Shown: piece by piece, positions 27,822-62,365 of the stretch | How positions within the stretch are numbered: the stretch's first letter is position 1 | Layout of the letters: every line of letters begins with the position of its first letter | NCBI RefSeq assembly: GCF_037940415.1 | Contig: NZ_CP149798.1 | Span: 3,651,001 to 3,715,000 of the forward strand | Source: Streptomyces sp. f51 | Lineage (GTDB): Bacteria; Actinomycetota; Actinomycetes; Streptomycetales; Streptomycetaceae | Length of the DNA stretch: 64,000 nucleotides | Direction of reading: 5' to 3' | Translations under genes and position numbers: made by a program | Notes under the pieces: model-generated | Told to the model about the DNA's origin: nothing | The model's input: only the letters and a program-made list of their open reading frames with translations | Databases searched by the model: none

Positions 27822-28274
27822 CGAGCCACCTCCTCCCGTCCGCGGAGCGGACCTAGCAGTGCCCTTAATTTCTACGGCACGGCACTGACAAGTGAGCGGC
27901 CCGACTCCGCATCTCACGCGTCGGTTTTGCGAGCTTTCCGAGGCCGGAGAAGAGAACGGGCGCCGCACCACGTTAGGCCCGCGGGCACCGTCAGCCAATC
28001 TGGTTATCCACAGGCCATGTGGACGACGGCCCCGATGCTGTGGAGAACTCCGCGAAACCTGTGCACGACCCGGTGGACAGCCCTGTGAACAAGCCCTCAG
28101 GCCTTCTGAAGAACAGGCTCTGACCTGGCATTTTCCCATCCACCGGCTGTGCAGAAGAAAAACTTCCCCAGCCGGATCAAGATCGCCTCGAACAGTGCGC
28201 CAGAACACACCCCGCACGCACGGAAGTAAGGGTCCTTCGCCTTTTGCATCTCTTACCTGTGGAAGATTAGATTG
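27822..28274. other. Divergent intergenic region dnaB / MATE, rich in DnaA-box-like sequences
   Basis: About 450 bp. A TTATCCACA 9-mer and five degenerate DnaA-like 9-mers lie between 28004 and 28092, with a weaker one at 28258-28266. Otherwise the region is lower in G+C than its neighbours and shows no small gene. Confidence 0.7.
28004..28092. promoter_or_regulatory. Cluster of DnaA-box-like 9-mers
   Basis: TTATCCACA (28004-28012) is a perfect consensus box. TGTGGACGA (28018), TGTGGAGAA (28039) and TGTGAACAA (28084) each differ by one base from TGTGGACAA; TGTGCACGA (28060) and GGTGGACAG (28072) by two. Six in 89 bp is far above expectation in high-G+C DNA. DnaA-box clusters outside oriC are known in S. 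coelicolor; whether this is the counterpart of one is not known to me. Confidence 0.6.
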
Positions 28275-55854: not shown

Positions 55855-56949
55855 TCAGCCTTCCGCGTCGTCTGCGTCGTCGTCCAGGAGGCTCTTCTGA
55901 AGGACAGGTCCCTCGCCCGGGGCGAGCGAGCCGAGGATGCGCTCAAGGTCTTCCATCGAAGCGAACTCGACCGTGATCTTGCCCTTCTTCTGCCCCAGGT
56001 CGACCTTCACCCGGGTCTCGAAGCGGTCCGAGAGCCGTGTCGCCAGATCGCTCAGCGCCGGGGAGACCCGGCTGCCGGCCCGCGGGCCCTTGGAGCGCTG
56101 AGCCGTCTGCGGACGCGACCCCATGAGCGTCACGATCTCCTCCACAGCCCGCACCGAGAGCCCCTCGGCGACGATGCGGTGGGCCAGACGGTCCTGCTCC
56201 TCCGAGTCGTCGACCGCGAGCAGGGCCCGCGCATGTCCCGCGGAGAGAACTCCGGCGGCAACACGACGCTGAACCGACGGGGAGAGCTTCAGCAGACGCA
56301 GGGTGTTGGAGACCTGGGGACGCGACCGTCCGATCCGGTCCGCCAACTGGTCGTGGGTGCAGTTGAAGTCCTTGAGCAGCTGGTCGTAGGCCGCCGCCTC
56401 TTCCAGCGGGTTCAGCTGGGCCCTGTGGAGGTTCTCCAGGAGCGCGTCCAGGAGGAGCTTCTCGTCCTCCGTGGCGCGCACGATCGCGGGAATGGCCTCA
56501 AGTCCCGCCTCACGGCAGGCCCGGAAGCGGCGCTCTCCCATGATGAGCTCGTAGCGCCCGGAGGCCACCTGGCGGACGACGACGGGCTGGAGGAGCCCGA
56601 CCTCCTTGATGGAGGTCACCAGCTCGGCAAGAGCGTCCTCATCGAAGATCTCGCGCGGCTGGCGCGGGTTCGGCGTGATGGCGTCGAGGGGCAGCTCGGC
56701 GAAGTGGGCACCGACGGGAGCCGGAAGCGTCTCCAGCGATCCGCTCGACGCCCCGTCCTCCGTTTCATGTGAAACAGACGGCAGCGTGGTCACCTTCGCC
56801 GCGGCCACCCCGCGCTCCGCCGTGAGAACGGGGCCGGTGGTCGGCGCGGAAGGAGCCCCGCTCCCCGCACCACCCGGACGCTCACCTGTCGGAGCCGCAG
56901 GGATCAGCGCGCCAAGGCCCCGCCCCAGACCCCGTCGTCGGTCGCTCAC
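55855..56949 (-). CDS. parB: Chromosome-partitioning protein ParB
   Basis: 364 residues. After the N-terminal ParA-stimulating GLGRGLGALIP and a disordered stretch, the ParB/CTPase domain has TPNPRQPREIFDEDALAELV, the GERRFRA motif and ENLHRAQLNP; the helix-turn-helix DQLADRIGRSRPQVSNTLRL binds parS. The C-terminal dimer domain ends DDDADDAEG. The GTG start overlaps the parA stop by 4 bp. A near-parS (56762) lies in its own coding sequence and encodes VSHET. Confidence 0.98.
   Translation of the reverse strand: MSDRRRGLGRGLGALIPAAPTGERPGGAGSGAPSAPTTGPVLTAERGVAAAKVTTLPSVSHETEDGASSGSLETLPAPVGAHFAELPLDAITPNPRQPREIFDEDALAELVTSIKEVGLLQPVVVRQVASGRYELIMGERRFRACREAGLEAIPAIVRATEDEKLLLDALLENLHRAQLNPLEEAAAYDQLLKDFNCTHDQLADRIGRSRPQVSNTLRLLKLSPSVQRRVAAGVLSAGHARALLAVDDSEEQDRLAHRIVAEGLSVRAVEEIVTLMGSRPQTAQRSKGPRAGSRVSPALSDLATRLSDRFETRVKVDLGQKKGKITVEFASMEDLERILGSLAPGEGPVLQKSLLDDDADDAEG
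56762..56775. other. parS-like site (one mismatch) inside parB
   Basis: GTTTCATGTGAAAC, in frame within the disordered N-terminal region of ParB (SVSHETE on the coding strand). Confidence 0.6.
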
Positions 56950-58019
56950 TGGATCCCCTCCACCATGTTCTGATCGTTCTGTCCGCCCACGTGGGCATGT
57001 TGCGCGTCGTACGCCACTCCGACTCCTCGCAGGGCGATTTCGCGCGCGGCCTCAAGATACGAGAGAGCACCGCTCGAACCCGGATCGTAAGTCAGAACCG
57101 TCTGCCCGTAGCTCGGGGCCTCCGAAATTCGTACCGAACGCGGGATGCTCGTCCGCAGCACCTCCTTGCCGAAGTGGCTGCGCACCTCCTCCGCGACCTG
57201 GGAAGCGAGTCGGGTCCGGCCGTCGTACATGGTGAGCAGGATCGTCGAGACGTGGAGGTCGGGGTTGAGGTGACCTCGCACCAGGTCCACGTTGCGCAGG
57301 AGCTGACCCAGACCCTCCAGCGCGTAGTACTCGCACTGGATGGGGATGAGCACCTCCGCGCCGGCGACCAGGGCGTTGACCGTCAGCAGACCCAGCGACG
57401 GCGGGCAGTCGATGAGGACGTAGTCCAGCGGCTGCTCGTACGCCAGGATCGCTCGGTCCAGCCGGCTCTCACGCGCAACCAGCGACACGAGTTCGATCTC
57501 CGCACCGGCGAGGTCGATGGTGGCCGGGGCACAGAAGAGACCCTCGACGTCGGGGACCGGCTGAACGACTTCGGAGAGCGGCTTGCTGTCGATCAGCACG
57601 TCATAGATCGACGGAACCTCGGCGTGGTGATCGATGCCCAGAGCCGTGGAGGCATTGCCCTGAGGGTCGAGGTCGATCACCAGGACCCGGCCGCCATGCA
57701 GAGCCAGCGAGGCGGCAAGGTTGACCGTGGTCGTGGTCTTACCCACCCCACCCTTCTGGTTGGCGACCACGATGACTCGGGTCTGTTCGGGCCGTGGCAG
57801 GCCCTCACCGGCGCGACCTAGCGCCTCCACAGCCAGTTGGGCAGCACGACCGATAGGAGTGTCGTCCATCGGGGGCGGTGTTTCACGTGAAACATCCTCC
57901 CCCATCGACTCGGTACGGGGACCGGGGACCGGATCGGTCATCGGTCCCGCGATGTTGGCGTCGGACCGCAAGGATTCACTCTCCTCGACTTCAGGCTCGC
58001 AATGAACAGAGCCTCCCAT
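56946..58019 (-). CDS. parA: Chromosome-partitioning ATPase ParA
   Basis: About 357 residues if the ATG at 58019 is used; the frame is open to 58193 but that part contains parS and DnaA boxes and is probably leader DNA. A later ATG (57941) is also possible. The deviant Walker A motif is ANQKGGVGKTTTTVNLAASL, followed by LDPQGNAS and DCPPSLGLLT. It forms ATP-dependent filaments/gradients that position ParB-oriC complexes in spore compartments. A perfect parS (57880) in the polar N-terminal part encodes VSRET. It is coupled to parB (GTGA overlap). Confidence 0.97.
   Translation of the reverse strand: MGGSVHCEPEVEESESLRSDANIAGPMTDPVPGPRTESMGEDVSRETPPPMDDTPIGRAAQLAVEALGRAGEGLPRPEQTRVIVVANQKGGVGKTTTTVNLAASLALHGGRVLVIDLDPQGNASTALGIDHHAEVPSIYDVLIDSKPLSEVVQPVPDVEGLFCAPATIDLAGAEIELVSLVARESRLDRAILAYEQPLDYVLIDCPPSLGLLTVNALVAGAEVLIPIQCEYYALEGLGQLLRNVDLVRGHLNPDLHVSTILLTMYDGRTRLASQVAEEVRSHFGKEVLRTSIPRSVRISEAPSYGQTVLTYDPGSSGALSYLEAAREIALRGVGVAYDAQHAHVGGQNDQNMVEGIQ
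57880..57893. other. parS site (perfect) inside parA
   Basis: GTTTCACGTGAAAC in frame within the ParA N-terminal region, encoding DVSRETP. Confidence 0.92.
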
Positions 58020-58055
58020 GCCATTGGGGTCGTGAACCAGCGAGGCCCGTTGTTC

Positions 58056-58082
58056 TGTGGAGAAATCCACCTCTGTGGACAA
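58056..58082. promoter_or_regulatory. Two DnaA boxes in the parA leader
   Basis: TGTGGACAA (58074-58082) is a perfect Streptomyces DnaA box on the minus strand (TTGTCCACA); TGTGGAGAA (58056-58064) has one mismatch. Confidence 0.65.
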
Positions 58083-58177
58083 CTCCGGGGCTCTCCCGAG
58101 CGAGCCGAGAGGCTTCCGATCGCGAGGTTCGGCCGCAGCCCGGCCGCGACTGATGATGCCCTGCAACAGTGAGCGAC

Positions 58178-58191
58178 GTTTCACGTGAAAC
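58178..58191. other. parS site (perfect) upstream of parA
   Basis: GTTTCACGTGAAAC, about 160 bp upstream of the preferred parA start. ParB here could also affect parA transcription. Confidence 0.92.
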
Positions 58192-58326
58192 ACGATGCCG
58201 AGCCACGCAGGTCAGGGCGGCGCGACACTCCGATATGCGCAGGTTTGCCAGCTTTTGCGCAATAGGTCACATCATCGGGATCGAAGCGCCCTACGTGAGA
58301 AACAACTCCTGGATCCGGACAAGGAA

Positions 58327-58358
58327 ACTCCCGGCCCCCCTCATGAGGGACCGGGAGT
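58327..58358 (-). terminator. Terminator after rsmG
   Basis: 8-bp outer arms (58327-58334 and 58351-58358) enclosing an inner CCCTCATGAGGG stem, 66 bp beyond the rsmG stop. Confidence 0.7.
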
Positions 58359-61967: not shown

Positions 61968-62365
61968 TCGGGGGCTCCAGAAAGAATCGGTGGTGGCGGG
62001 GTGCCGTCCTGGCTGTCACCGTGCGCCCACGAGGAAACTCGCATTACGCCCGAGTGCACCGCTTCCCGATCACTCTTCGTGATCTGTGCCCATCGGAGGC
62101 AGGCGGCAGCAGCCATCGACAACTCGACCTGGTTACGGTACGCGCGGCTACGCCATCCGGTCAAACCAACCCCCGGCGGGGGACACTATCCACAGGCTGG
62201 GGACAACAACTTGAACCGCACCCGTCGCCCTGACTACCGTGGCTGAACTCCGATTCGTTCCCTTCCCGCCGCCCCAGCGGCTTTGTTCCCCCCGCCCCAA
62301 GCGACTGACTTCCCAACCTGTTCCCAGAACCACACGTTCGTGGGACCCGTGAGAGAGCGTGCCCC
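61968..62365. other. rpmH-dnaA divergent promoter region
   Basis: About 400 bp with the start regions of both operons and one pair of DnaA-box-like sequences (62186-62206). No small gene is evident. oriC itself lies on the other side of dnaA in Streptomyces. Confidence 0.7.
62186..62206. promoter_or_regulatory. Pair of DnaA-box-like sequences upstream of dnaA
   Basis: CTATCCACA (62186-62194) and TGGGGACAA (62198-62206), inverted to each other, each one base from consensus. Similar boxes in the S. lividans dnaA promoter serve autoregulation. Confidence 0.7.

Follow-up and report, generated by a model that had tools for sequence, protein, structure and literature searches.

Putative DnaA boxes, a promoter-like block and a conserved internal start within the parA gene of Streptomyces

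The parAB locus and its motifs

The window analysed here, a stretch of 64,000 nucleotides from Streptomyces sp. f51 (G000:C1:3651001-3715000), comes from a chromosome of the Streptomyces type, where it lies to the left of oriC; dnaA stands at the right end of the window. Its minus strand carries genes that we take, from their sequences, to be rpmH, rnpA, yidD, yidC, jag, rsmG, parA and parB. The long parA frame (56946-58193, minus strand) encodes 415 amino acids and is accompanied by parB (55855-56949, minus strand). Two putative DnaA boxes, both oriented along parA on the minus strand, occur within this frame: box 1, TTGTCCACA, at 58074-58082 (codons 38-40; TGTGGACAA on the plus strand), and box 2, TTCTCCACA, at 58056-58064 (codons 44-46; TGTGGAGAA on the plus strand). 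A parS site, CGTTTCACGTGAAACA (58177-58192, no strand assigned), which departs from the 16-mer consensus by one mismatch, overlaps the start codon of the long ParA, and a second one (57879-57894, likewise unstranded) lies inside parA, over codons for VSRET. The two boxes and the upstream parS had been named in the original prediction, and a motif scan of the window found all of them at the positions given there.

With one mismatch at most, TTATCCACA occurs at 6 sites in the window as against 2.2 expected. The paired pattern TTSTCCACA-N(0-30)-TTSTCCACA has 2 occurrences across all 8.15 Mb of the genome, where the reversed control pattern has none. The 186 bp around the boxes are single copy, no second copy being found in the same genome, and they are present in 295/295 genomes of the genus. 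The other same-strand pair (L081:1501-1533) stands about 40-75 nt before the likely start of a response regulator gene, presumably of the OmpR type. As in other Streptomyces origin regions, parS-like sites with up to 3 mismatches are abundant, thirteen being found over window positions 11971-58192 where 0.04 would be expected.

DnaA boxes also stand elsewhere in the window. Three of them (TTATCCACA, TCGTCCACA and TTCTCCACA) occupy an intergenic region at 28004-28047, between a minus-strand gene that we take to be dnaB-like (replicative helicase) and a divergent gene presumably of the MATE type. The region upstream of the dnaB-like gene has matches in 78/81 genomes of the genus; among the 25 best matching loci, 24 keep all three boxes and the remaining one keeps two, and the dnaB-like gene is a candidate for a second DnaA-controlled replication gene. 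At 62186-62204, CTATCCACA lies upstream of dnaA with TTGTCCCCA close by on the other strand, which fits the dnaA autoregulation that the available part of a review reports for Streptomyces lividans (PMC8203912).

Two conserved starts in parA

The N-terminal region of parA was aligned for the window and 51 named Streptomyces-type relatives, drawn from 80 loci; a wider set of 224 loci gave 209 distinct sequences after duplicates were merged. Family counts leave out L055-L065 and L067-L080, which belong to other families, as well as the own-genome copies L081-L084 and L144, and L210, although its frame is open, falls outside the counts on 209 sequences under their stricter pattern. Box counts refer to the 184 distinct sequences with a Streptomyces-type block and to the pattern YYVTCCACA. 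Relatives of one genus being non-independent, such counts overstate the evidence, and the argument is carried by the contrast with the much-changed synonymous sites on both sides of the boxes.

The long frame opens with a GTG codon (58191-58193, minus strand). Across the 209 distinct sequences this first codon is GTG in 205, TTG in 3 and ATG in 1, and the frame is unbroken into the Walker motif in the window and in all 51 relatives, with indels of the N-terminal alignment in multiples of three. Codons 1-21 (58131-58193, minus strand) encode a basic N-terminal peptide, (V/M)FHVKRRSLLxGIISRGRAAA, which is conserved across genera of the family and evolves with a dN/dS of 0.11. They are followed by a variable linker with in-frame indels (codons 22-37, 58083-58130, minus strand; dN/dS 0.26, dS 1.23). 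Variability at the three codon positions is 0.036/0.017/0.213 in the peptide and 0.138/0.202/0.404 in the linker. The exact 14-bp core of parS is present at the start in 200/209 distinct sequences; in the nine others it is altered or lost, and the start codon and the V-K-R codons are still kept. L049, L050, L125, L127, L194, L195 and L197 are examples in which the site at the parA start is lost and these codons are retained. Furthermore, Kitasatospora-like relatives preserve the start and the N-terminal peptide, with everything from there to the second parS absent. No Shine-Dalgarno was seen at this upstream start, Shine-Dalgarno-like purines occurring in 5/209 sequences.

The first codons show coding-type evolution and the start is kept throughout the family, which places the boxes inside the long parA frame. 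The original prediction had set them upstream of the preferred parA start and had named translation from 58193 as one observation that would overturn it; the conserved frame begins at this GTG, with the boxes downstream, and the reading as a leader fails for the long form to the extent that a start can be proved from sequence evolution. Neither is parS the partner of the boxes in one leader, as it shares bases with the upstream start codon and is some 95 bp away from the nearer box. Two other candidate starts were rejected: ATG 58019 has no Shine-Dalgarno before it and the codons upstream of it evolve as protein, and ATG 57941 is conserved in near relatives but is ACG in several others.

Ahead of the upstream start, a terminator-like hairpin after rsmG (58327-58358, minus strand) leaves about 130 bp for a promoter, so that the long-form mRNA may be nearly leaderless. 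The conserved GGAGTGTC stands 38 nt before GTG 58193, within the motif CGGAGTGTCG (58223-58232, minus strand), whose reverse complement holds GACAC. The pattern GG[AT]GTGTC occurs at most 60 nt from the start in 200/209 distinct sequences, mostly 38-39 nt away; it is absent before the parA start of L207. GACAC is the WhiA motif; WhiA bound the parAB promoter of S. coelicolor in vitro, but ChIP-seq in S. venezuelae did not show it at this promoter (PMC3781837).

A second start lies further downstream, where a Shine-Dalgarno, GAGGAG (57981-57986, minus strand), precedes a TTG codon (57969-57971, minus strand) from which a short ParA of 341 amino acids would be made. Sequences were anchored at this place by the Shine-Dalgarno and the bases around it, never by the codon itself; a count of the Shine-Dalgarno is thus partly circular. 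The codon reads TTG in 185, GTG in 14 (L119 among them) and ATG in 1 of the 200 sequences so anchored, TTG making up 304/5657 of the Leu codons downstream. In genera lacking the block and the boxes, the corresponding place reads ATG, GTG or TTG. Codon-position variability is flat before the TTG (0.038/0.042/0.039 over codons 59-84) and codon-like after it (0.115/0.062/0.263 over +31 to +63). From these comparisons we conclude that a second, internal start is conserved in parA and that the DNA ahead of it, besides coding for the linker, serves as a regulatory region. An overlapping or antisense gene was rejected, given the flat variability of codons 59-84. A hairpin is predicted 23-53 nt after the internal start (57918-57948, minus strand); its pairing is mostly kept in 73 distinct sequences with little covariation. 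Such a stable hairpin could slow ribosomes at the weak start codon. A structured RNA as the main cause of conservation was likewise rejected, as hairpins are predicted but show little covariation, and an Rfam search returned sub-threshold matches only.

DnaA boxes and the promoter-like block

Over codons 38-46, which hold both boxes, dS falls to 0.16 (bootstrap 0.07-0.35) with a dN/dS of 1.2, as against a dS of 1.23 immediately before the boxes and 0.78-0.90 over the core of ParA, so that the box block shows at most about one fifth of the synonymous change seen in its surroundings. At least one YYVTCCACA box is present in 180/184 distinct sequences, where about 5 would be expected from codon choice; at least two are found in 116, one only in 64 and none in 4. 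Ser-Thr dipeptides are spelled TCCACA in 335/349 cases in the block and in 7/377 cases over the initial 600 nt of the core. Box 2 often changes its Phe codon to Ser (TTC to TCA or TCG) and the DnaA box is preserved. The DnaA consensus has YYV before TCCACA, in agreement with the oriC words, and the first three box positions vary exactly within YYV, as in the boxes of oriC; TTGTCCACA and TTCTCCACA are words of the same kind as those in the oriC region of the same genome. The former is tabulated as the high-affinity box of S. coelicolor in the available portion of PMC4285127. Neighbouring boxes are spaced by 18 bp in 107 of the 117 successive pairs. The gap is 9 bp in the window, whereas E. coli DnaA prefers pairs of boxes 2-3 bp apart, as stated in the accessible part of PMC11317965. 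In position, strand and wording alike, the putative boxes are kept far beyond coding need, and their pattern of substitution looks like that of selected DNA sites.

Downstream of the boxes lies a conserved block that reads CTGGTT ... ATGG[CG]AGGCTCTGTT. Its upstream half, CTGGTT (58035-58040, minus strand), may act as a -35-like element, and its downstream half, ATGGGAGGCTCTGTT (58005-58019, minus strand), contains a presumed -10-like GAGGCT (58010-58015, minus strand). A sigma-70 consensus scan matched no promoter, the block included. The last box is placed 15 bp upstream of the block in 175/181 sequences, and in some sequences with 3 nt more before the internal start the boxes and the block are both shifted along. 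Among the 200 sequences with the internal start, boxes are found in 181/186 having the block and in 2/14 in which no block was found by pattern. Boxes and block are thus conserved at the DNA level and with a fixed spacing, as judged from their evolution.

A reading of the locus and its relation to known systems

The explanation that we favor, with a probability of about 0.6, is that parA has nested starts and that the short ParA is expressed from an internal promoter closely preceded by DnaA boxes, through which DnaA would set parAB output. The long ParA (415 amino acids) would be expressed from an upstream promoter with the WhiA-type motif and a GTG inside parS, and would carry the conserved basic peptide at its N-terminus, followed by a linker free to evolve. 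The short ParA (341 amino acids) would start at the internal Shine-Dalgarno and TTG, behind a putative promoter, the block, hidden in linker-coding DNA. One or two putative DnaA boxes 15 bp upstream of the block on the parA strand would offer a place for an upstream activator or modulator, and bound DnaA, in whichever direction it acts, would adjust the output of the internal promoter and couple the amount of ParA to the initiation of replication. The other, upstream promoter would be acted on by WhiA and by ParB bound to the upstream parS. On the simplest reading, the upstream promoter would be the developmental one, and the internal promoter would produce the short form, regulated by DnaA from upstream. 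Control of parAB by DnaA is retained as plausible and is relocated to the internal promoter. A more tentative and rather doubtful extension is a switch between two isoforms, in which DnaA would set short ParA in growth, and WhiA together with ParB at the parS-embedded start would yield long ParA for sporulation segregation. Because ParA-type proteins can act on DnaA, such a switch would join initiation and segregation in a closed loop.

Several other explanations deserve consideration. The codons of L-S-T and F-S-T might happen to spell DnaA boxes, by chance or coding constraint, and all 297 boxes are indeed in codon phase, as expected anyway from in-frame indels; 200 synonymous redraws of the set, however, gave a mean of 4.6 and a maximum of 11 boxes, and the rare codons TTG and ACA are kept in a block whose dN/dS is 1.2, so that we attach almost no weight to this account. 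Slightly less remote, yet still very improbable, is the layout first proposed, with parA starting only downstream of the boxes and with parS and boxes in one untranslated leader. A conserved internal start does exist downstream of the boxes, but codons 1-37 evolve as protein, in a frame that stays open throughout and whose first codon is always GTG, TTG or ATG, and Kitasatospora-like relatives keep the upstream start without the intervening DNA. What survives of that leader is its boxes, which look selected and stand just upstream of a conserved promoter-like block and a conserved internal start; the region from parS to the boxes is coding, as judged from its dN/dS values (0.11 and 0.26), its preserved frame and the start-codon column.

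The boxes may also bind DnaA without acting on transcription, for instance to titrate it locally or as a chromosomal site near the origin at which DnaA is loaded or inactivated; oriC is only about 6 kb away, and its box words resemble those in parA. We consider this unlikely, considering that only one or two boxes are present, that their spacing to the block is fixed (175/181) and that they are missing in 12/14 sequences in which no block was found. About equally improbable in our view is that a different regulator, or an mRNA feature (structure or translation from the internal start), accounts for the conserved DNA, the TCCACA words being sites of a protein other than DnaA. The conservation reaching well past the boxes and the hairpin mostly kept after the internal start speak for it; the variation of the first three box positions within YYV, the absence of any match above threshold in Rfam and the little covariation speak against it.

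The favored reading, that DnaA acts at an internal parAB promoter, bears on the coupling of replication initiation and segregation in multigenomic Streptomyces hyphae, for which a selected DnaA site at such a promoter would offer a direct and testable link. The boxes depend on the choice among synonymous codons (TTG, TCC, ACA), so it is possible to eliminate them and leave the ParA protein unaltered. Furthermore, the ParA N-terminus is made uncertain by the two starts, and what is tagged or purified as "ParA" may correspond to either of two forms.

In a literature search that did not take in two papers of 2006 likely to bear on the matter, one on the promoters of parAB and one that reportedly deals with clusters of DnaA boxes in Streptomyces, we found no description of DnaA boxes in or before Streptomyces parA, or of a second ParA start, and the novelty of the arrangement is accordingly uncertain. 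Beyond the Streptomycetaceae, a TTNTCCACA box at most 800 nt from the Walker motif was found in 1/25 parA loci, at -557. The excerpts of three papers on Streptomyces parAB (PMC3781837, PMC4852455 and PMC4255298) mention neither DnaA boxes nor an internal start; they describe two promoters, one of them sporulation-specific and dependent on WhiA/WhiB, and a review among them distinguishes a strong sporulation promoter from a weaker vegetative one. The WhiA-type motif before GTG 58193 fits the sporulation promoter. For mycobacterial parAB, the accessible part of PMC2346475 describes no DnaA boxes and places parS in parA and near the gidB promoters, likewise here at or near the par promoters and inside parA. 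As a transcription factor, DnaA has boxes upstream of promoters of cell-cycle genes, a likeness to the arrangement proposed here; parA and soj have no occurrence in the available text of the review on this role of DnaA, and unlike at the promoters it treats, the boxes here are inside coding sequence and before parA (PMC8203912). Finally, a direct link between ParA and DnaA would be shared with B. subtilis, where Soj (ParA) acts on DnaA according to the portions consulted of PMC3411110 and PMC7022226; there ParA acts on the DnaA protein, whereas here DnaA would act on parA expression.
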